DNA from: a virus
Reading direction: 5' to 3' (one strand)
DNA length: 23,137 bases
IMG/VR virus record: IMGVR_UViG_3300008450_000484
Location: 1-23,137 of that record
The position numbers and the translations under genes were made by a program. Below, piece by piece: positions 1-23,137 of this stretch; positions within the stretch are counted from its first letter, which is position 1, and each line of letters starts with the position of its first letter. The notes under the pieces are model-generated. The model did not search any database. It saw only the letters and a program-made list of their open reading frames with translations, and was not told the DNA's origin.

Positions 1-534
1 TTGATTTTTTTCTTCCTCACTAACATCTGGAATTAAATGGAAGAATTGTTCTTTGTTACCTGATTTAATGGCTGCTCTTGTTTTTGTTCCACTAACACCA
101 CCTGAGGTAGTAATGACTTTTACCTCAATATTAGGATATTTTTCAATAGATCTAGTTCTAGATTCAATATCTTTTAAATCATCTTCATCACCTTCTCTAG
201 CACCTAAAACCCAATAAACTTTTTCTTCAGGATGATCTTTAGCGTATCCTAAAACAGATTTAACAGGAGCCACTGATGGTTCTATATCAACTTTAGGGGA
301 TAAATAATTTTTATATATCTCCCATATTTTAATAGATTCCTCTTGAGTAATACCATCTCTAACTCCACCACCAACAAATATTTTTAATTCATCTATTTCA
401 GGGAAGTCCTCTAATGTTTTTTTAACCACAGCAAAATGACCTTTGGTGGGAGGTTTAAACCCACCACCATAGATAGCTACTGTTATTGGTTTTTCTAACA
501 GTTCTTGTAATAAAGATTCTGTTACCTCAGACAT
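1..534 (-). CDS. nucleotidyltransferase (T/HxGH superfamily), 3' end cut by window edge
   Basis: An open frame runs from the ATG at 534 to base 1 with no stop, giving the first 178 residues of a protein. The start overlaps the stop of the upstream gene as TAATG. Residues 18-34 form a beta strand followed by GGGFKPPTKGH, with the T-x-G-H nucleotide-binding signature at 30-33. A second signature, SGTKTR (148-153), matches the ISxTxxR motif near the end of NMN/pantetheine-phosphate adenylyltransferases and cytidylyltransferases. Such enzymes transfer a nucleotidyl group from an NTP to a phosphorylated acceptor; the acceptor here cannot be read from sequence. Residues 1-17 are an amphipathic leader very like that of the kinase two genes upstream. 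It is the last gene of a tight kinase / coiled-coil / nucleotidyltransferase run. The fold is fairly secure, the substrate unknown. Confidence 0.8.
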   Translation of the reverse strand, partial: MSEVTESLLQELLEKPITVAIYGGGFKPPTKGHFAVVKKTLEDFPEIDELKIFVGGGVRDGITQEESIKIWEIYKNYLSPKVDIEPSVAPVKSVLGYAKDHPEEKVYWVLGAREGDEDDLKDIESRTRSIEKYPNIEVKVITTSGGVSGTKTRAAIKSGNKEQFFHLIPDVSEEEKNQ

Positions 535-899
535 TATTGTAAAGCTTTAATTTTATCTTTAGCGGATTTTTTCTTTTCCTCAATATCTTTTTTAGCCGAA
601 CGAAACTCTTCCATAGCATCTTCCATTTCTTTAAGTTGCATTTCGTATTCTTTAAGGGCTTCAGTAGCTATTCTAGAGGCATCTGATTTTTGTTTGTAAA
701 CACCTTTGATTTCATCCATTTTGATTTCATCAAATACAGTAGCTTCATACATTACATCTTCTTTAGTCATACCTTTTTTAGGTTTTTTAACTACAAAGAA
801 TTTACCAATTTCGTTAACTACCTCAGGTGCTTCTTCTTTAACAGGTTTTAATACCTCTTTTTCCTCTATTTCATTTAATAGATCTAATAATTTTTTCAT
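534..899 (-). CDS. small charged coiled-coil protein, function unknown
   Basis: This 121-residue protein has no family I recognise. The N-terminus (MKKLLDLLNEIEEKE) is an amphipathic leader. Residues about 30-70 form a small mixed region, and residues about 75-120 are a long charged helix rich in Glu, Lys and Met, almost certainly coiled coil. The gene overlaps the kinase stop as ATGA and the nucleotidyltransferase start as TAATG, so the three are probably translationally coupled. The leader carries an L-x-E pattern, as do its two neighbours, which could mark T4-like prohead packaging; that is inference. It could be a structural or scaffold-like internal protein, or an accessory subunit of a neighbouring enzyme. 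TATAAATA, the T4 late-promoter core, lies directly before the ATG but also encodes the kinase C-terminus, so I do not call it a promoter. Confidence 0.75.
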   Translation of the reverse strand: MKKLLDLLNEIEEKEVLKPVKEEAPEVVNEIGKFFVVKKPKKGMTKEDVMYEATVFDEIKMDEIKGVYKQKSDASRIATEALKEYEMQLKEMEDAMEEFRSAKKDIEEKKKSAKDKIKALQ

Positions 900-1657
900 T
901 TATTTATAAAGTTAGTGATTTTAGACTTTGCTTGTTCCTCAGTATCAAATTTAGGTTGATTTTGTAATGATGATTTGATATCTGAATATATTTGTTCTGA
1001 TTCTGCTTTAGATTTAGCTAATTCCTCAGGTGATTTTTCTTTACCTACTTGACCTAAAGGTTCAATAAATGTTTTAAAAATATATTCTTGGTCAAATTCT
1101 TTATTAGCATCTTCAGGATCTAAATTTACTAATGTAAAATTATTTCCAAATGCTTGTTTATATGCGTCTATATTTTTATTTACATCACGCCAAGAACGAA
1201 TTACGATGCTTGGCAATAATGATCTGTCTCGTTTCATATTACGCTCTAGTGAGGTAATAGGCGATACATAAGTCATTATCATTGCTGTTTCGTAACCTAA
1301 GTCTTCTAATTCTTGTTTTTTCTTAAGTAATGTTTTAGATGAACCTCCTACACTATCAATTAAAATATTGTTAGCATTTTCTAATGCTTTTTTATATTTT
1401 ATGTCTGTAGCTTTTCTGGCTTGGCCCATTAATTCACCTGCCTTTTTTAATTCATCAGGTGACATGTTAGCTAACTTCATTCCAATACCTGAGGCCTGTA
1501 ATAATTCCTCATAGGTATCATCTACGTTAATAGTTTGAAAGTCTGAAGGTACTAATATTTTAGATATATAGGATTTACCTGATCCTGCTGGACCTGCCAT
1601 AAAAATTGCTTTTGGCTTGCCTTGTATTTCTTTTAAGAGAGATATCAGTCCAATCAT
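896..1657 (-). CDS. P-loop kinase / zeta-toxin-like ATPase
   Basis: The 253-residue protein starts with a 16-residue amphipathic leader, then a hydrophobic strand and the Walker A motif GPAGSGKS (22-29). An acidic strand end with NVDD lies near 44-47 and a Walker B-like strand ILIDSVG at 98-104. The basic stretch RNMKRDRSLLPS (139-150) could form the lid. This layout matches small P-loop phosphotransferases of the zeta-toxin / polynucleotide-kinase / AAA_33 type, which move the gamma phosphate of ATP to a small molecule or nucleic-acid end. The last 60 residues are charged and probably helical. It lies after the PD-(D/E)XK nuclease and overlaps the next gene by ATGA. No antitoxin partner is visible, so an enzyme role is likelier than a toxin. 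The ATG at 1657 follows a 34-base gap containing a TATTTATG element. Confidence 0.8.
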   Translation of the reverse strand: MIGLISLLKEIQGKPKAIFMAGPAGSGKSYISKILVPSDFQTINVDDTYEELLQASGIGMKLANMSPDELKKAGELMGQARKATDIKYKKALENANNILIDSVGGSSKTLLKKKQELEDLGYETAMIMTYVSPITSLERNMKRDRSLLPSIVIRSWRDVNKNIDAYKQAFGNNFTLVNLDPEDANKEFDQEYIFKTFIEPLGQVGKEKSPEELAKSKAESEQIYSDIKSSLQNQPKFDTEEQAKSKITNFINK

Positions 1658-1670
1658 GGATAGGGTTTGC

Positions 1671-1680
1671 CATAAATATA
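1671..1680 (-). promoter_or_regulatory. variant of recurrent AT-rich intergenic element
   Basis: The coding strand reads TATATTTATG, a one-base variant of the ATATTTATAA element found in other gaps of this window. It ends 13 bases before the kinase ATG. The out-of-frame ATG inside it does not fit the kinase frame. The role (promoter or translation leader) is inferred only from recurrence. Confidence 0.25.
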
Positions 1681-9600: not shown

Positions 9601-11143
9601 CGTATTCAAAACCTTGTGGGGTTGGTAATAAAGTAGATGCATCTGGAATGTTAAATAAACTACCTGATGGGGTAAAACCTAATAAAGCCGAATATAAATC
9701 ATTAGATGAAAAATTATTTTGGTATATTTTAATACCTAAATCTCTTAATACATCCGCTACTAAATCTTTTGAAATACCATAATCTAATCTATTGTCAGCA
9801 TTATATTTTTGTGTAACATTTTCAATATAAAGATAAATGTTATCAAACATTTGTGCTAACATTTCCACAAATAACTCATATTGAGTATTATTTGGGTCTT
9901 CTATAATGTATGAAGGAATAGCATTTACTAAAGCATTATCATTATTATCATCATATAAAGAGGCACTTAGTGATTGGGTTGTTAAAAATGATAAACCTGC
10001 AGCTGAGGTAGTAGTAACATTTATGTAAGGAGGGGTTGAATTGGTTTTAGGCCATGCTTTTGAACCTGATTCATAATAAAGATAATATTCATAACCATCA
10101 AAATTAGTTATGATTTCATCTATTTTGTTTTGCCAAATAATATTACTTGAAGAAACATAGTAATTTGTTGTAGTACCAGATGATAAAGAGGCACTAGCTT
10201 GATATGTTTCTATTAATGAAAGTTTATAATAAAAATTTTCTAATCTTGTTTGTGCCGAGGACATATAAACAAAATCAGAGTAATCAGTATAATCTACATT
10301 TATTTCAATTCCTTTTTCAGCCAATAAACTATTTACTTGATATAAGTAACTTCCCGTACCTTGAGATTTATTAGTGGTTGATAAACTAGTATATGAATTA
10401 TAAGGGGTTGAATTATTTATTTGATCTTTTAAACCAATATTAAAATTAGGTCCTTTTAACTGAATATTTTCGTCTATTAAATTAAACGAAATTAAAATAT
10501 CAATGTTGTAAGCAAGAGGTTCTGCTATTTGTTCTACAACCCAACATTCAGTTTTTAATGCAAACTCAATAGGGAGTGGTTCATATAATTTTATTAATAC
10601 TGTTGGGTCATTAGAATTTGAATTATCTAATAAAACATTATTAGCAATTATTAATCTATTAGAACCAAAATTTAAATAAAAATCTAAATAACTACCTGTT
10701 GAATTTTGGATTTGAGAAGCAAAATCATTAGTAGTAGAGACTACTTCCTCATTAGGAATAGATGTAGTATTTAATCTTATTTCTGTTCTATCAGCAGAAA
10801 TTTCATCAATATAATATCTATTTAAAGCAGATGATCCTAATTTATTAGTAAAAAAGTTATATAAAACATTATATTGACCCTCTTCATATCCTTGAGATTT
10901 TAAATTTTCTAAAGGCTCTAAAGATAATTGATTATCTAAAATTGAGTAATTAGGATATCCAATTTCATTAGAATATAATATAGTATTATTTAAATCATAT
11001 ATGAAATATTCAATATGATCCGTTTGAGGATCAAATGTTGTTTCAAAAGTATTTGAAGAAATCAGAGAAGTATCCTCAGAAGAATATTCCTGAAATTCAA
11101 AAGTATTAGGATTTAATGGTTGTATGTTAATTATTTCTTCCAT
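6608..11143 (-). CDS. giant baseplate wedge/tail-fibre protein with LamG-like insert
   Basis: At 1511 residues this is the largest protein here. The N-terminal 200 residues are beta-rich. Residues about 290-320 resemble a helical segment (RLENFYYKLSLIE) known to me from marine myovirus proteins. Residues about 415-480 are a helical wedge-like region (NTQYELFVEMLAQMFDNI), and about 537-577 contain YHNLPYLLKKKGTVEGLRTL, typical of gpI/gp7-like baseplate proteins. Residues about 600-780 look like a LamG/concanavalin-like sandwich, a fold often used for sugar binding. Residues about 981-1019 hold a helical core with GVVIKQHLLERNKYP. The remainder is Ser/Gly/Tyr-rich. It follows gp25, gp6 and two more baseplate genes, so a gp7-like wedge or fibre-attachment role is likely. 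The exact T4 counterpart is uncertain. Confidence 0.75.
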   Translation of the reverse strand: MEEIINIQPLNPNTFEFQEYSSEDTSLISSNTFETTFDPQTDHIEYFIYDLNNTILYSNEIGYPNYSILDNQLSLEPLENLKSQGYEEGQYNVLYNFFTNKLGSSALNRYYIDEISADRTEIRLNTTSIPNEEVVSTTNDFASQIQNSTGSYLDFYLNFGSNRLIIANNVLLDNSNSNDPTVLIKLYEPLPIEFALKTECWVVEQIAEPLAYNIDILISFNLIDENIQLKGPNFNIGLKDQINNSTPYNSYTSLSTTNKSQGTGSYLYQVNSLLAEKGIEINVDYTDYSDFVYMSSAQTRLENFYYKLSLIETYQASASLSSGTTTNYYVSSSNIIWQNKIDEIITNFDGYEYYLYYESGSKAWPKTNSTPPYINVTTTSAAGLSFLTTQSLSASLYDDNNDNALVNAIPSYIIEDPNNTQYELFVEMLAQMFDNIYLYIENVTQKYNADNRLDYGISKDLVADVLRDLGIKIYQNNFSSNDLYSALLGFTPSGSLFNIPDASTLLPTPQGFEYVSTFVTASSTSSLSPVDDINKEIYKRIYHNLPYLLKKKGTVEGLRTLITIYGIPDTVLRVNEFGGKDKNPNTYDFWQDEFNYAYKSTGSYYLSSSFALNSTWGAPNNVPGAVEFRFKAESIPPTYYSQSLWSTDQGLGVFLEYTGSGLTTGSYAGAVVNPYYQYGTLKFISGTDSASVYLPFFDNNWWSVLVNSGSNGYYLYAKNSIYNGEDGNLIGFQASSSLNIPTLWSASAKILFASSSATHVGFSGSLQEIRYYTQPISESSFDAYVMNPSSIEQSQYLAFRAALGGELYTGSTSIHPKVTGSWTSTSSFTGTSNFYTSSNPTYSANTETYFYDQPAVGIQNIVSNKIKTSNLVLPTTTSIDSNIPNSKVLSSQISIQQNPSISSSYTRDVDYVEVAFSPQNEINEDIMSTLGFFNIGDYIGDPRQVSSSAESYPDLDALRNQYFLKYISNYNIWDYIRLIKYFDNSLFKMLQDWTPVRTSLASGVVIKQHLLERNKYPVPQLEYTQSLYTGSIDMYEISGSNGGALNITSIVTQSWTGTIPSPSGSVPFIQNNESEFFNGQFSGSILTVTDGDLNEDNSNDTFLPLDNNISDNRLSTVYMDVDYTNNSLIPVNQQAILSGSATKFPIPDSNYTMARSINPRYNGSRTTSPGFNQPIYSSLTTLSTQSQVPNASRYSNYFVYFDYIESSYPEVPGGGNIHSVYLITTEGQAIPLTGDNNYVSEVSNIFPPGLKANILPAVYSAGNINPQVTIFDGGANFQTIFTLSGSVSGNGTSFGILYGNNFPIVGSLPYNTYFTTGSNSSILSDLDITPGYNEYWLRYVLYNSDEDTSNSVLYASDDFYIYNKNSKQTISSDSNGVPYPINYYDTLLPLKPYDIIRFGDARVSGSSDSSSLDFSFNGIQSVTILSSSLDLFSSSSLYCIPSLSSYVTSSFIGGVNNLQNQNWRLFRRVPDETNVVIQSLITFTDPGFLIPENFNPNYNPYDLARKAGIIT

Positions 11144-11146
11144 TTA

Positions 11147-11488
11147 TTATATACTTCCTGAAATTATTTGTTGTTGTAAATCAAAGTTTTCTTGTCTTAA
11201 TTGGTTAATTTCATCAATTAGGGCTTGAATTGTATCATCTTGAATATTTGTAGATCCAACATATTCTTGACTTGTTTTTATAAGGTACTCATGAGAATTT
11301 GTTTCTCCAAGTTTAGGTATTTGAAAAAATATTTCCTGGTAATTAGAGAAAAATTCAGCTACTGAAATTGAGGGGATTGATTCGGGGGTTGGTGTTGGGG
11401 GTTGAACCAATTGAGTAAAAGAAGTATCAATTACCCTTTGGTATTGATTTTTATCATATGATTCTTTATTTAAGTTTACCTTAGCCAT
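11147..11488 (-). CDS. small baseplate-associated protein with C-terminal coiled coil
   Basis: The 113-residue protein starts MAKVNLNKESYDKNQYQRV, has a Pro-rich linker (PPTPTPESIP, about 30-40), then an aromatic helix (AEFFSNYQEIFFQIPKLG) and SHEYLIKTSQEY. It ends in a heptad-like coiled coil, LIDEINQLRQENFDLQQQI. Its start lies inside the end of the DNRLRE-like gene with an eight-base overlap, and it stops three bases before the giant wedge gene, so the three are surely co-expressed. I infer a connector or chaperone in wedge assembly. No family name can be given from sequence alone. Confidence 0.65.
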   Translation of the reverse strand: MAKVNLNKESYDKNQYQRVIDTSFTQLVQPPTPTPESIPSISVAEFFSNYQEIFFQIPKLGETNSHEYLIKTSQEYVGSTNIQDDTIQALIDEINQLRQENFDLQQQIISGSI

Positions 11489-12608
11489 TAACTACTTTAA
11501 AATTGTAATTGTTATCAAATACTATAGTAGAACCATTGATTGTAGTTTGAATTAAAATAGTATAATATCTTTCTGGTTCTAAACCATTCATATACATTGT
11601 GAAATAACTACCACTAGCATCACAACTTAGTTTTGTATAAGTAGAATCAAAATCTATTACATATTCATTTGTATCTAAATCTTTTATAGCATAGTAAGAT
11701 GCGGTAGGTAAAGCATAATTTGTTGTATAAAGAGATGCTGTTTGCCATACCCTAGCAGGATATAAAGGAGCAGCATTTACTCTAAATACATTAATACTAC
11801 TAGAATAAAATACTCCTGGATTTTGGTCAAGGGCAATATTTGCAGGAATAGTATTTAATACTGTTAAACTACCTGTTGAATATGTAAAATCATTCCATTT
11901 AAACTCTAATTGAGGAGGATAAATAGTATGAGTATCTCTAGAAAAATATTTTAAAGTAACCTGTTGATTAGTATCATTTATAAATTCTTGAGATTGAGTT
12001 TGTCTAACTATAAATCCATAATTAGTAAATGAACTACTATACCATTCCGAAACTATAGAGGTTACATTAGAATTTAAATCTAAATCAGAATAATAATTAA
12101 AAATTTGAGTAGCTTGAGAACCAGTATACCATACCCCACCTCCAGATGAAGAGGGATTTGTAGTTAAATTATAAGATCCTGTAGTACCTGAGGTAAAACT
12201 TGAGGTAGTCCATTTTGTACTTCCAGAATAATCTTTCCAAACCCAAGAGGAACCATCACTATTTTGAGGTAAATCTAAATAACGACCAGTACCCATTGAC
12301 CAATCTTCGGCTACAGCATTGATAGCTATAGAAGAGGTATTACTTAAACCAGTGGCATTAGCTATAAAAACTCTTAAATTAGATTGCCAAGTAGATCCTG
12401 ATATTTTATTATTAATAATATCTGTGATTTCTGAGGAATCAAATTTGATTAAATATCTTGATGATTGAGGAAATTGTCCTACAACCTGTAATTCACCTGT
12501 GGTAAAGTTAGTTGATGCTTCTATTATTTCATCTAAACCTGTATTCATAGAAGGATATCCTGAATATAGGGTAGAATCGGCTATTGGGAATATTTTATAT
12601 ACTGCCAT
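11481..12608 (-). CDS. baseplate/tail protein with N-terminal DNRLRE-like beta domain
   Basis: The 375-residue protein opens with KIFPIADSTLYSGYPSMNTG, a good match to the start of DNRLRE/CBM-like beta-sandwich domains (A-D-x-x-I/L-x-S-G-x-P-x-x-N-x-G), probably covering residues 5 to about 210. The rest is Ser/Thr/Tyr-rich beta sequence ending in a fibronectin-like strand pattern (LEPERYYTILIQTTI). Such domains usually bind polysaccharide or proteins at surfaces. In T4 the slot after gp6 holds wedge proteins gp7 and gp8, so this could be a positional gp8 analogue or a surface decoration. The gene starts eight bases after the gp6 stop and overlaps the next start by eight bases. Confidence 0.65.
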   Translation of the reverse strand: MAVYKIFPIADSTLYSGYPSMNTGLDEIIEASTNFTTGELQVVGQFPQSSRYLIKFDSSEITDIINNKISGSTWQSNLRVFIANATGLSNTSSIAINAVAEDWSMGTGRYLDLPQNSDGSSWVWKDYSGSTKWTTSSFTSGTTGSYNLTTNPSSSGGGVWYTGSQATQIFNYYSDLDLNSNVTSIVSEWYSSSFTNYGFIVRQTQSQEFINDTNQQVTLKYFSRDTHTIYPPQLEFKWNDFTYSTGSLTVLNTIPANIALDQNPGVFYSSSINVFRVNAAPLYPARVWQTASLYTTNYALPTASYYAIKDLDTNEYVIDFDSTYTKLSCDASGSYFTMYMNGLEPERYYTILIQTTINGSTIVFDNNYNFKVVNG

Positions 12609-12616
12609 TGTTTAAA

Positions 12617-14476
12617 TTATAAAGGTACTATTCTTCCTTGAATATCGGTATTAGGATATTTAACTTCAAAAATCATAGGGTCTAAAGATGGATAAATTAC
12701 ATTATTAATAGTTGCTCCTTTTACATCATATGAATAAGGAGAATATCCTAAATTTTCACCTGTTAAATTATTCATTTCTATATTTTTAACAGTTTGAACA
12801 CCTTCAATTCTATCTAATAAAATATAAATATCTCTTAAAATAATTGGTTGATTAATTTGCCATTTGTCTACAGCAAAATAATCTTGTAAAGCCAAAATAC
12901 ATTTAGTTAAAATTTCATTACTATTGTAATCAGGCAAAACAATTATATCAAAATTAACACCAATATTAATGATAAATCCGTCTTTAATACTTACAGCATC
13001 TCCTACCATTTTATATTGAGATAAATAGGTATTTAAATTTTGTTTTAAAGCGGGAGAAGCATTAACTAATTGATTAGATGAATTATAAGATAACACATAT
13101 AAATCTAAAACAGATTGAGCCTCACCAGCAGATATTGAACTTACTTTTGTTGGTTCAACATATGCTTTAGCAATAACTCCATATTTAGAAGGCATTGAAA
13201 GAGCTCTTACTAAATAATCATCTTGGGTTACGTTACGTAATTGAGAAGCAAAGTTTGCTGATGAATTTTGTCTTATTTCCTCTATTGTATCTCCATCTCC
13301 TCCACCATCAGCTGCATCTGGATTTGTAACTGCTAATGAGTTAAATATAGTATTAGCTGTAGTTGAGTTAAGATTTGAATTGATAAAATTAATGGTTCCG
13401 GATAATGTTGTTAAATCATTTGATGGAACATTTGATTCAACTCCCCCACCAGTTAAATATCTTACAGTTAATGTGGTATTAGAAGGTGTTATACCGTAAG
13501 TTTTAGTTAATAAAAAGTTATTAGGAGCAAAAGCTGTATTTAATTTTGTTTTTTCAAAAGGTAATCCTAAACCTACATTATTTGCATTAGGAATTATTTC
13601 CTCATCAGTATCTAAAGGATCTCCAGAACCAAATTGGATTTGAAGAGAACCAGAATTTATAAAACGAGTTGTAAATCTTCTTTGGATTTTTTCTAATTTT
13701 AATAAATAAGGGGTATTTGAGGAATCTGTTGAATAATTAGGATCATTTGGGTTAGTATTCTTAATAGAATTATAAACCATTTCTTGTCCCAAATAATCAA
13801 CCTCATACCATTCATTTCCATCACTGTCTATAACATCTAAAATACCAATAATGTTATCAGTATTAATATTAACAGTAGTATAAGGTTCTGGTAATCCAAA
13901 TGTAAAAGTAGTTGTACTTATATTAGCTGATATTGCTTTTTTATTTTTTCTTAATAAGAAATATGTTGGGTTTCCACTTCCATCAACACTAAAAATAGAT
14001 ACTTCTGTGGGATCTAATGAGCTAGAATATGAGAAATCTACAGACTCTTCTATTAAGAAACCAACACTAGGAGTATTTGATGAAATTATATTTGAATTTT
14101 CAGCTATTAAAAGAGAATAATCAAAGTCAGGAACATAAGTTGAGCCTGAAAGTTTAGCTGGAACTTGTTGGTAGAAATCAATGTTAGTAATAGCCACTTG
14201 AGTTACATTTGGTTTATAACCAAACATATAAGCTAACTCATATAAGTTGTTTGTTTGACGAGCATATTGTAAAAATGTTTCTTGTATCTGATTATCTGTA
14301 TAAAAAGATAAAACATCACCTACATAAGCGGCCATCTCCATAAACATCATACCTGGTGATGTTGGAGAAAAATCATTATAAGTTGTTGGGAAATAAGTAC
14401 GAGCATAATTAATTAAACTAGCTCTTAATTCCGTAAAATCTTTATTGATGTATTGTATATTTCTTTTAATTGCCAT
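12617..14476 (-). CDS. baseplate wedge subunit gp6 (baseplate J-like)
   Basis: Residues about 14-91 are the classic gp6/J opening: FTELRASLINYARTYFPTTY, then SPGMMFMEMAAYVGDVLSFY and an ELAYMFGYKP turn. In T4, gp6 dimers form the inner ring of the baseplate iris that opens when the sheath contracts. The middle is beta-rich. Residues about 380-430 carry a conserved N-x-S-A-N-F-A-S-Q-L-R-N-V-T-Q-D-D-Y segment, and the C-terminal 150 residues repeat the helix/strand pattern of the J-protein end (LRDIYILLDRIEGVQTVKNI). Length (619) is close to T4 gp6 (660). It shares a TAATG overlap with the gp25 gene upstream, the same partner and order as in T4. Confidence 0.92.
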   Translation of the reverse strand: MAIKRNIQYINKDFTELRASLINYARTYFPTTYNDFSPTSPGMMFMEMAAYVGDVLSFYTDNQIQETFLQYARQTNNLYELAYMFGYKPNVTQVAITNIDFYQQVPAKLSGSTYVPDFDYSLLIAENSNIISSNTPSVGFLIEESVDFSYSSSLDPTEVSIFSVDGSGNPTYFLLRKNKKAISANISTTTFTFGLPEPYTTVNINTDNIIGILDVIDSDGNEWYEVDYLGQEMVYNSIKNTNPNDPNYSTDSSNTPYLLKLEKIQRRFTTRFINSGSLQIQFGSGDPLDTDEEIIPNANNVGLGLPFEKTKLNTAFAPNNFLLTKTYGITPSNTTLTVRYLTGGGVESNVPSNDLTTLSGTINFINSNLNSTTANTIFNSLAVTNPDAADGGGDGDTIEEIRQNSSANFASQLRNVTQDDYLVRALSMPSKYGVIAKAYVEPTKVSSISAGEAQSVLDLYVLSYNSSNQLVNASPALKQNLNTYLSQYKMVGDAVSIKDGFIINIGVNFDIIVLPDYNSNEILTKCILALQDYFAVDKWQINQPIILRDIYILLDRIEGVQTVKNIEMNNLTGENLGYSPYSYDVKGATINNVIYPSLDPMIFEVKYPNTDIQGRIVPL

Positions 14477-14883
14477 TATATAAATGATATTGAAAGTTCA
14501 TCGGTAATTCCTGTATTTGCTATACTATATTTAAAATCAACAATTATTTCATTAGTATCAGGATTAGATAATATATCTAAAGAAGAAATAATAACATTAG
14601 GAAAATATAATCCCAATTGTGTTTGTATATCTTCTTTTAATCCTTCTAAATTGTTGTTTGTTATTTGTTCAAAAATAAATGCTCTTAAGTTTCCTCCAAA
14701 TATTGGATTTAAATATATTTCGTTTTGATTTGTTAGAAAAAAATTTAACAAATTAACTTTTATAGCATCTTGAGTTAAGTAAGTAGATTTAAATACACCG
14801 GGAGCATTAAAAGGAATAGAAACACCAACACCAGTTCCTGGTTTGGTATCTATGGGGAATATCTTTTTTGCTCCAAATGCCAT
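14476..14883 (-). CDS. baseplate wedge subunit gp25 (GPW/gp25 family)
   Basis: This 135-residue protein fits the GPW_gp25 family in length and layout. It has a short N-terminal strand (KKIFPIDTKPG), a Gly/Pro loop, then a helix with VNLLNFFLTNQNEIYLNP followed by FGGNLRAFIFEQI, the hallmark helix-loop-helix. The C-terminal beta strands (VIISSLDILS and IIVDFKYSI) complete the fold. In T4, gp25 staples the gp6/gp7 wedge together and helps nucleate the sheath. Both ends overlap neighbours as TAATG, with gp6 downstream, conserving the T4 pair. Confidence 0.93.
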   Translation of the reverse strand: MAFGAKKIFPIDTKPGTGVGVSIPFNAPGVFKSTYLTQDAIKVNLLNFFLTNQNEIYLNPIFGGNLRAFIFEQITNNNLEGLKEDIQTQLGLYFPNVIISSLDILSNPDTNEIIVDFKYSIANTGITDELSISFI

Positions 14884-15230
14884 TATTTATTCATTAAAGC
14901 CATTATCTGGTCTAATCCAACTTGTCCTTCAGGTAAAGCACCATTAATAGTATCTACTGGACCTGTTGGGTTTATAGTGCCTTGGTAAGAAGTATTTGCT
15001 ACACCTCCATTTTGCATTCCCTCTAACATACCAGAAAACATATTTCTACGTTCTTCTGCGGTTAATTGTTTTGGTTGAGAAATATGAGGTTGAGCATAAG
15101 TATCTCTTATAGATTCATTTACAATTGTTTTAGGAGCTTTTACAGCCTCTAATATAATTTCACGTAACTCTTCTTGGATTGCCTCTTTAACGGCTTCCTT
15201 GATCATTTTTTTAAATTCACTTGGTTTCAT
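14883..15230 (-). CDS. small baseplate-region protein with amphipathic N-terminal helix
   Basis: I do not recognise this 115-residue protein. Residues 4-30 are a long amphipathic Lys/Glu/Ala/Ile helix (FKKMIKEAVKEAIQEELREI) ending in IILEA, an L-x-E|A pattern like T4 prohead-protease sites. A disordered Pro/Gln linker follows, then ERRNMFSGMLEGM and a Gly/Asn/Thr-rich segment. The C-terminus is a short helix, LDQIMALMNK. It sits between the hub-associated gene and gp25, so it is probably a minor tail component or assembly factor, but a packaged internal protein is possible. The start follows an 18-base gap with the recurrent ATATTTATAA element three bases before the ATG. Confidence 0.65.
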   Translation of the reverse strand: MKPSEFKKMIKEAVKEAIQEELREIILEAVKAPKTIVNESIRDTYAQPHISQPKQLTAEERRNMFSGMLEGMQNGGVANTSYQGTINPTGPVDTINGALPEGQVGLDQIMALMNK

Positions 15231-22267: not shown

Positions 22268-23137
22268 TTAATTTCTATAACCTGTGCGAAATAGATAATA
22301 ATTTGAATTTCCTTTATTTGTGAGTCCTGATAAAGTAATAGATTGAGTTCCTGAATAAGTTGATTTGGGATTAGATGATGATATACTAATAGTATTCCAT
22401 TCTATAGGTGTAAATATTCTATAATTAGGTACTCCTATCTTCCAACTTACCCCTATTATTTTAGCATATATTAAATATACATCTGTAATAGTTAAAGTAT
22501 TATCATTATTAACATCCATTCTATAATAATCTCTGGCATTAAAGGATTGTTGTAATACTTTTTGATTAAATGATTGAGCATCACTTATTGATGGATTAGA
22601 TATAGTTAAAGTATTAATTTGAAGTTGAAAATCATAAGTTGTAGCATCTTTAGTAGATGAAATAGTGTATTTACCGCTTGCATCTGTATTAATAGTACTC
22701 TCTAAATTATAGGTAGATGCTGATTTTAATTTAGAATAAAATTTAACAGGTATATTTTGTATTCCTACCCCCTCAGAATTATAAATAAATCCAGTATAAG
22801 AAAAAGGATCTGTAGCACCAACAATTCTAGTTTTAAAGTCAAAAGTATTACCATAAGGGTATGTTCCACAAATTACAGGTGAACCAGAATATTGCATTAC
22901 AAATCTCATATAAACTTCTCCATTATAAACAGAGGTAGGAACAGTAAATGTAGCTGTGATTGTTTTGGTTCCTGTCCAAGCATAATTTGAACTGTGAACC
23001 AATTCCCCAGCATCTGTTAATACCCCATTTCCATTAAAATCAATCCATAATTTAAAATATTCCATATAATTACCATTAGTAACTCCTGTATATGAAATAG
23101 AGATTGATTGACCTGCTCTAATTCTAGGAACAGTATC
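22268..23137 (-). CDS. adhesin-like protein: GEVED-like, Ig-like and dockerin-like domains (5' end outside window)
   Basis: The frame stays open through the right edge, so only the last 289 residues are seen; the Met at 23065 is internal. Fragment residues about 20-107 resemble a GEVED domain (LWIDFNGNGVLTDAGE, then a conserved ICGTYPYGNTFDF end), a fold common in secreted Bacteroidetes proteins. About 112-175 is a carboxypeptidase-regulatory/CNA-B-like sandwich (TGFIYNSEGVGIQNIPVKFY with GKYTIS). About 185-225 carries a dockerin-like calcium loop (DVNNDNTLTITDVYLIYAKI). The C-terminus is a Ser/Thr-rich beta segment without a sorting-signal pattern I can identify. On a phage this would be a tail fibre, adhesin or surface-binding protein. 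It is the first gene seen in the lysis group. Confidence 0.7.
   Translation of the reverse strand, partial: DTVPRIRAGQSISISYTGVTNGNYMEYFKLWIDFNGNGVLTDAGELVHSSNYAWTGTKTITATFTVPTSVYNGEVYMRFVMQYSGSPVICGTYPYGNTFDFKTRIVGATDPFSYTGFIYNSEGVGIQNIPVKFYSKLKSASTYNLESTINTDASGKYTISSTKDATTYDFQLQINTLTISNPSISDAQSFNQKVLQQSFNARDYYRMDVNNDNTLTITDVYLIYAKIIGVSWKIGVPNYRIFTPIEWNTISISSSNPKSTYSGTQSITLSGLTNKGNSNYYLFRTGYRN

Follow-up and report, generated by a model that had tools for sequence, protein, structure and literature searches.

Related short N-terminal leaders, candidate capsid-targeting sequences, on unrelated neighbouring proteins of a T4-like phage

A leader-bearing gene trio at the window edge

The stretch of DNA analysed here, called the window, is a 23,137-base fragment of a T4-like phage record and carries its genes on the minus strand. 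Head genes are absent from the fragment, and PHROG searches of the window matched none. Judged from the window's relatives, the phage group probably has Bacteroidetes hosts; the closest isolate to the MCP of one relative (G001) is Flavobacterium phage immuto, at about 65% identity. Three genes at the window edge concern us, in the transcription order kinase (1657..896), coiled-coil protein (899..534) and nucleotidyltransferase (NTase; 534..1, cut by the window edge). Upstream of them lie a PD-(D/E)XK exonuclease, a primase, a GIY-YIG protein and tail and baseplate genes. A further edge ORF (22268-23137, minus strand) matched no PHROGs family and resembles a secreted adhesin with a dockerin-like segment. 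Relatives were collected by one search with the kinase as query, which returned 80 loci, and four long relatives were read whole or in part.

The first gene (896..1657, minus strand) encodes a P-loop kinase of the zeta-toxin/polynucleotide-kinase type with 253 aa (Pfam Zeta_toxin, E=5.8e-10). Its ORF begins MIGLISLLKEIQGKPKAIFMAGPAGSGKS and opens with the leader MIGLISLLKE (leader feature MIGLISLLKEIQGK, 1616..1657, minus strand), in which the motif [LI]xE occupies residues 8-10 (1628-1636). The AlphaFold model of the kinase has a pLDDT of 91.7, with about 50 in the leader and more than 86 in the remainder of the protein, and the first ten residues form a short separate helix ahead of the first strand, outside the fold. 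The nearest solved folds are epsilon-zeta toxin, PezT toxin and polynucleotide kinase. The phage protein has the kinase core fold in common with the zeta/PezT toxins and polynucleotide kinases and, unlike these, has an added leader and sits in a phage late-type operon. No antitoxin gene of the kind that adjoins a zeta toxin is recognisable beside it, its exonuclease and coiled-coil neighbours giving no antitoxin match.

The second gene (534..899, minus strand) encodes a small coiled-coil protein of 121 aa with a conserved E[IV]GKFF[VI]VKKP core, for which family searches gave no match above the cut-off. It begins MKKLLDLLNEIEEKE, with the leader MKKLLDLLNE (leader feature MKKLLDLLNEIEEK, 858..899, minus strand) and [LI]xE at residues 8-10 (870-878). 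The third (1..534, minus strand) encodes the N-terminal domain of a HIGH-type (cytidylyltransferase-like) nucleotidyltransferase (PHROG 3041 cytidyltransferase, E=1.6e-4), of which the window copy stops after 178 aa. It begins MSEVTESLLQELLEKPITVAIYGGGFKPP, with the leader MSEVTESLLQE (leader feature MSEVTESLLQELLEKP, 487..534, minus strand) and [LI]xE at residues 9-11 (502-510).

A preliminary description of this DNA had proposed that related leaders stand on these three unrelated neighbours, and all three proteins do have them. The literal pattern that it gave, S-L-L-[KQ]-E-[IL]-x-x-K-P, is present in both enzymes and was rejected as the tag itself, few NTase relatives keeping the KP. From these comparisons we read the exact SLL..E..KP match as partly coincidence and [LI]-x-E as the fixed part. 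The kinase-NTase leader pair reaches a best ungapped score of 28, the shuffles averaging 13.7 (p=0.002, uncorrected for the window's pairs); this similarity alone is modest, and the case therefore rests on the relatives.

Conservation and exchange of the leaders among relatives

An alignment of relatives, as the preliminary description had suggested, shows that the motif is kept on all three proteins. [LI]xE is present in the leader of 71/71 distinct kinase relatives, within the first 14 residues of 44/44 coiled-coil relatives and within the first 15 residues of 64/65 NTase relatives; these counts are not independent, since every locus was found via the kinase and many are close kin. Among the 71 kinases the Glu is invariant (entropy 0) and lies five residues ahead of the P-K-A-I-F core, while the remaining leader residues vary; many of the sequences are closely related, so that part of the conservation reflects shared ancestry. 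The Glu and the [LI] are likewise fixed in a 25-sequence kinase alignment that reaches down to 57% identity. The sole NTase relative without [LI]xE begins directly at the first core strand, which disfavours the leader as a part of the NTase fold. The leader as a part of the kinase fold is disfavoured by the AlphaFold model and by the replaced leaders of distant homologues.

The leaders of the relatives are interchangeable, one core occurring with different leaders and one leader on unrelated cores. Kinase relatives also bear MIRLVDLLLE and MKIRIKE, each followed by Ala, and three coiled-coil relatives carry another leader type (MKQSQLRQLIREEI, MKLSDLKQLIKEEL, MKRSELKQLIREAI) ahead of the same core. 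A search for the same leaders on other proteins, also suggested beforehand, found them shared by many unrelated families, and the types that can be named are KLLDLLNE, FDLKKYLVENK..S.LNE, RMQKLAGIITE and KKSELRxIIKE. For a quantitative comparison, families were defined by the sequence after residue 30 and their N-termini were compared with shuffles. Leader pairs scoring at least 33 numbered 45 downstream of the kinase (3.4 for shuffles), 127 upstream of it (2.0) and 5 elsewhere (1.4), some of the high-scoring pairs possibly being distant members of one family. As a separate observation, small variable genes inserted just upstream of the kinase, between it and the exonuclease (in L010, L031, L035 and others), carry RMNQLAGIITEGQAKKM or FDLKKYLVENK leaders, and many of them have two [LI]xE sites.

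Codon identity at the shared leader residues is close to background in the two most widespread types (0.66 against 0.68, and 0.57 against 0.52), which points to selection on the peptide and not to recent copying of DNA. It is raised in the KLLDLLNE type (0.73 against a background of 0.58) and somewhat above background in the KKSELR type. Recent DNA copies or recombination joints as the origin of the leaders are thus disfavoured by the codon test in the two widespread types, less clearly so in KLLDLLNE. The same numbers bear on a broader alternative, in which the likeness is due to chance, short acidic amphipathic N-termini being common in AT-rich phages, or to conserved DNA joints for module exchange. 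The window's single pair, with its p value just 0.002 before correction, would fit such an account, and the codon identity of KLLDLLNE leaves room for some sharing at the DNA level; leader sharing nevertheless far exceeds both the shuffles and the rest of the same genomes, and with the background-level codon identity of the two widespread types we regard this explanation as very improbable.

Register, siting and protease-site signal

The leaders can be compared with the capsid-targeting sequences (CTSs) of T4. Ala follows the leader Glu in T4 IPI, IPII and IPIII, and Ala, Gly or Ser is usual at this position (P1') in T4. Mutation of the ten-residue CTS of IPIII has tied residues 4 and 7 to targeting and residues 8 and 10 to processing, and a protein with Asp at position 10 retained targeting and lost processing (PMC9026906). 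The corresponding register, hydrophobic at 4 and 7, L/I/V at 8 and E at 10, is found in T4 ipII and ipIII (MKTYQEFIAE followed by Ala) and in gp24 (MAKINELLRE followed by Ser). The window kinase and coiled-coil leaders are both in this register (L4, L7, L8, E10); the NTase leader misses it by one residue, some NTase relatives being in register. Counted by family, the register is found in 4.4/72 genes downstream of the kinase, where shuffles predict 0.15, and in 1.0/274 genes elsewhere, where they predict 0.58 (contrast of family counts, p=0.011), and all four register matches of G001 fall within the stretch from kinase to MCP.

Like the leaders of T4 IPI, IPII, IPIII and Alt, those described here are about ten residues long, hydrophobic at positions 4 and 7, end in L/I-x-E and stand on otherwise unrelated proteins, and the phage group, like T4, has gp21, a gp22-type scaffold and gp23. 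The short leader is common to unrelated cores both in the three window proteins and in families of the relatives, and the kinase, coiled-coil and NTase leaders all contain the gp21 site L/I-x-E. They differ from the T4 sequences in standing on identifiable enzymes and a multi-domain polyprotein, in their often bulky P1' residue, in the coexistence and swapping of several distinct leader types, and in that packaging is here a prediction from sequences. Whereas the T4 core has four internal proteins (Alt, IPI, IPII, IPIII), about a dozen candidate genes per genome are found here. Head proteins of phiKZ and SPN3US, cut by the gp175/gp245 protease, similarly have an N-terminal propeptide with a short motif ending in Glu. 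The SPN3US propeptides are mostly long, at 111-254 aa, with two of 20-24 aa (PMC10052503), and in contrast to the present leaders they have not been presented as a swappable tag common to several proteins.

In the long relatives the leaders cluster between the kinase and the gp21/gp22/gp23 genes. The gp21 and gp23 families were found in 4/10 relatives searched, all four longer than 100 kb, at 20-30 kb from the kinase; two other records above 100 kb and the shorter ones gave no gp21 or gp23 match and may be fragments. One contig of 268.7 kb (L018, G003) has two different gp21 and gp23 sets, at 31-35 kb and 233-238 kb, and is either two phages joined in assembly or a single genome that carries two head modules. 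Leader-like N-termini occur also at scattered early-region genes, and in the window a small protein adjoining the baseplate genes (14883-15230, minus strand) has a leader-like start with IKE and ILE, each followed by Ala (MKPSEFKKMIKEAVKEAIQEELREIILEAV). The leader style is therefore not confined to the head side, and not every leader need mean head packaging.

A late-type promoter-like motif, ATATTTATG (1671..1679, minus strand), lies upstream of the kinase-coiled-coil-NTase operon, and ATATTTAT is found upstream of the window operon and of 71/80 kinase relatives. Its enrichment before structural-block genes is seen in two long relatives (20/81 against 6/105, p=2e-4; 19/75 against 16/138, p=0.009), and it precedes sheath, tail tube, portal and several leader genes. 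We infer from this distribution that the motif upstream of the kinase operon acts as a late promoter. Other motifs, TTTGG...TATATT, precede many genes outside the structural block in G001 and G004 and look like a second (early, host-type) promoter class.

The preliminary description had placed L-x-E before a small residue, which fails in the window: P1' is Ile in the kinase and the coiled-coil protein and Leu/Lys in the NTase. With Ile or Leu in place of Ala, Gly or Ser, cleavage of the three window leaders is doubtful, and a bulky P1' is the majority state in the kinases and coiled-coil proteins of the relatives. Small residues do follow the Glu in some relatives and in distant homologues. 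In the 72 families downstream of the kinase, Ala, Gly or Ser occupies P1' in 37% of the [LI]xE motifs within residues 1-45, compared with 18% in other genes (Fisher p=8e-4), and in 32% once known head genes are removed. By position, [LI]xE[AGS] peaks at residues 10-20 (15 per 1000, compared with about 2). The gp21-, gp22- and gp67/68-like proteins of the long relatives bear it as well. Alignment with T4 gp23 did not fix the exact MCP cleavage site of the lineage, and no P1' rule was taken from that site.

Kinases of distant phages have the motif before a small residue ahead of the core: that of the Pelagibacter phage HTVC008M begins MIPFILKE followed by Gly, the next gene being an NTase, that of the Methylophilales phage Melnitz begins MKTFAELQE followed by Gly, and that of the Cronobacter phage S13 begins MNFKEFCQLDE followed by Ala. 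In Agrobacterium phage Atu_ph07 (L129) the kinase is a domain of gp53, with EVTE followed by Gly just ahead of it, and gp53 itself starts with the leader MKWNDLNE followed by Ala, variants of which begin gp54-gp62. Of the products of the whole range CDS 31-76, within which gp53 falls, 29 have been identified in virions (PMC6102473). The gp53-gp62 run, whose genes start M[KR]WxQL[TNI]E, lies in a virion-protein gene cluster, and most of its genes have a YRGM motif reminiscent of ADP-ribosyltransferases.

The same sites recur inside the NTase product of the relatives, which is the head of a polyprotein of 291-1337 aa that usually has an HEMVHHEQ metallopeptidase domain at its end; one lineage has the next gene's nucleotidase fused to it too. 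Single polypeptides of this kind, uniting NTase, metallopeptidase and nucleotidase, occur in L068 (around 11094-12668) and in relatives, and one such fusion has LTE followed by Gly immediately ahead of the nucleotidase domain. Within the NTase domain [LI]xE[AGS] is almost missing (2 in 5,940 residues); it recurs right after that domain and about 80 residues before the metallopeptidase His, where the border of the metallopeptidase domain is taken to lie. In 19 sequences the Glu behind the NTase domain, E189 in L004, never varies. The polyprotein model (pLDDT 64, pTM 0.37) is only partly reliable and was used just for its confident NTase domain and for the low-confidence stretches in which both border sites fall. 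Polyvalent proteins (Iyer et al. 2017, PMC5512222) are likewise large and multi-domain, lie close to phage head genes, combine an NTase, variable modules and a metallopeptidase, and are predicted to be packaged and injected. The polypeptides of the relatives unite the same elements, with at least two disparate enzymatic domains (NTase and metallopeptidase, sometimes a nucleotidase); unlike polyvalent proteins, they have an NTase of the HIGH type and not Pol-beta, [LIV]xE at domain borders, and single-domain neighbours that bear similar leaders.

A candidate route into the prohead

Taken with the T-even internal proteins, which have been described as defence proteins of diverse kinds that share only a conserved CTS and so provide a strong precedent (PMC3012670), these observations suggest that the leaders are capsid-targeting sequences that work like those of the T4 internal proteins and package the enzymes for injection. 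We put the probability of this reading at about two in three; each leader most likely "works like a CTS", which is a weaker claim than "is a proven CTS". The prohead-packaging tag that had been proposed earlier is accordingly the best-supported reading, through register, invariant Glu, swapping, gp21-gp23 siting, promoter motif and the distant kinases with LxE before Gly or Ala, and it falls short at the small P1' in the window. In the likely sequence of events, the kinase-coiled-coil-NTase operon would be transcribed late, and the leaders, short amphipathic helices ending in [LI]-x-E, would each dock their enzyme on the growing prohead core of gp22- and gp67/68-type proteins. Once the shell has closed, the gp21 protease would cut behind the Glu at those sites that suit it well enough. 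Kinase, coiled-coil protein and NTase polyprotein would remain inside the head and be injected along with the DNA into the host, where they might act on nucleotides or host targets before phage gene expression. Docking, packaging, cleavage, injection and enzyme targets are all inferred.

The leaders could instead be a docking helix that assembles an intracellular metabolon, all of them binding one partner, which could be the coiled-coil protein, a replication scaffold or a membrane scaffold, with nothing packaged. Such a helix would account for a shared amphipathic segment on neighbouring enzymes and for the window's lack of a small P1', and the low leader pLDDT is as expected of a peptide that needs a partner. 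It leaves unexplained the invariant Glu, the [LI]xE[AGS] enrichment, the sites before Gly or Ala in distant kinases and at polyprotein borders, the gp21-gp23 siting and the late-type promoter motif, and we consider it rather improbable. As the docking alternative of the preliminary description it is also not a clean rival, since the T4 CTS is itself a docking peptide.

Within the capsid-targeting reading, it is conceivable, though we hold it only tentatively, that the window leaders dock in the prohead and, because of their Ile or Leu at P1', remain uncut, the proteins being packaged with the tag on. T4 IPIII with Asp at position 10 behaves in this manner (PMC9026906), and most kinases and coiled-coil proteins have the bulky residue; set against this, the Glu need not be invariant in 71/71 kinases were cleavage irrelevant, and Ala does follow LLE in two kinase relatives and IKE in others. 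T4 Alt moreover loses about 7 residues (PMC9026906), and the only [LI]xE of its propeptide region is ITE, then Leu, so that a bulky P1' may be tolerated.

A further extension of the capsid-targeting reading is possible but doubtful, namely that at least four interchangeable leader types serve as distinct addresses by which a dozen or more variable proteins reach the prohead or other parts of the virion and, jointly, that the prohead protease cuts the polyprotein at its [LIV]xE borders into separate injected effectors. The literature searched, which covered few subscription journals, held no earlier description of the leaders and no virion proteomics of the lineage; what is new here is the breadth, with enzymes and polyproteins bearing several leader types in one phage group. 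If the capsid-targeting reading is true, the N-terminal sequence alone would show which uncharacterised genes of a large aquatic group of T4-like phages are injected, and the "hypothetical" neighbours of their head clusters would become candidates, open to testing, for early proteins of host takeover or anti-defence. The leaders would also add new short tags with which cargo could be loaded into phage heads, and the T4 CTS idea would reach beyond a few internal proteins to include enzymes and polyproteins.
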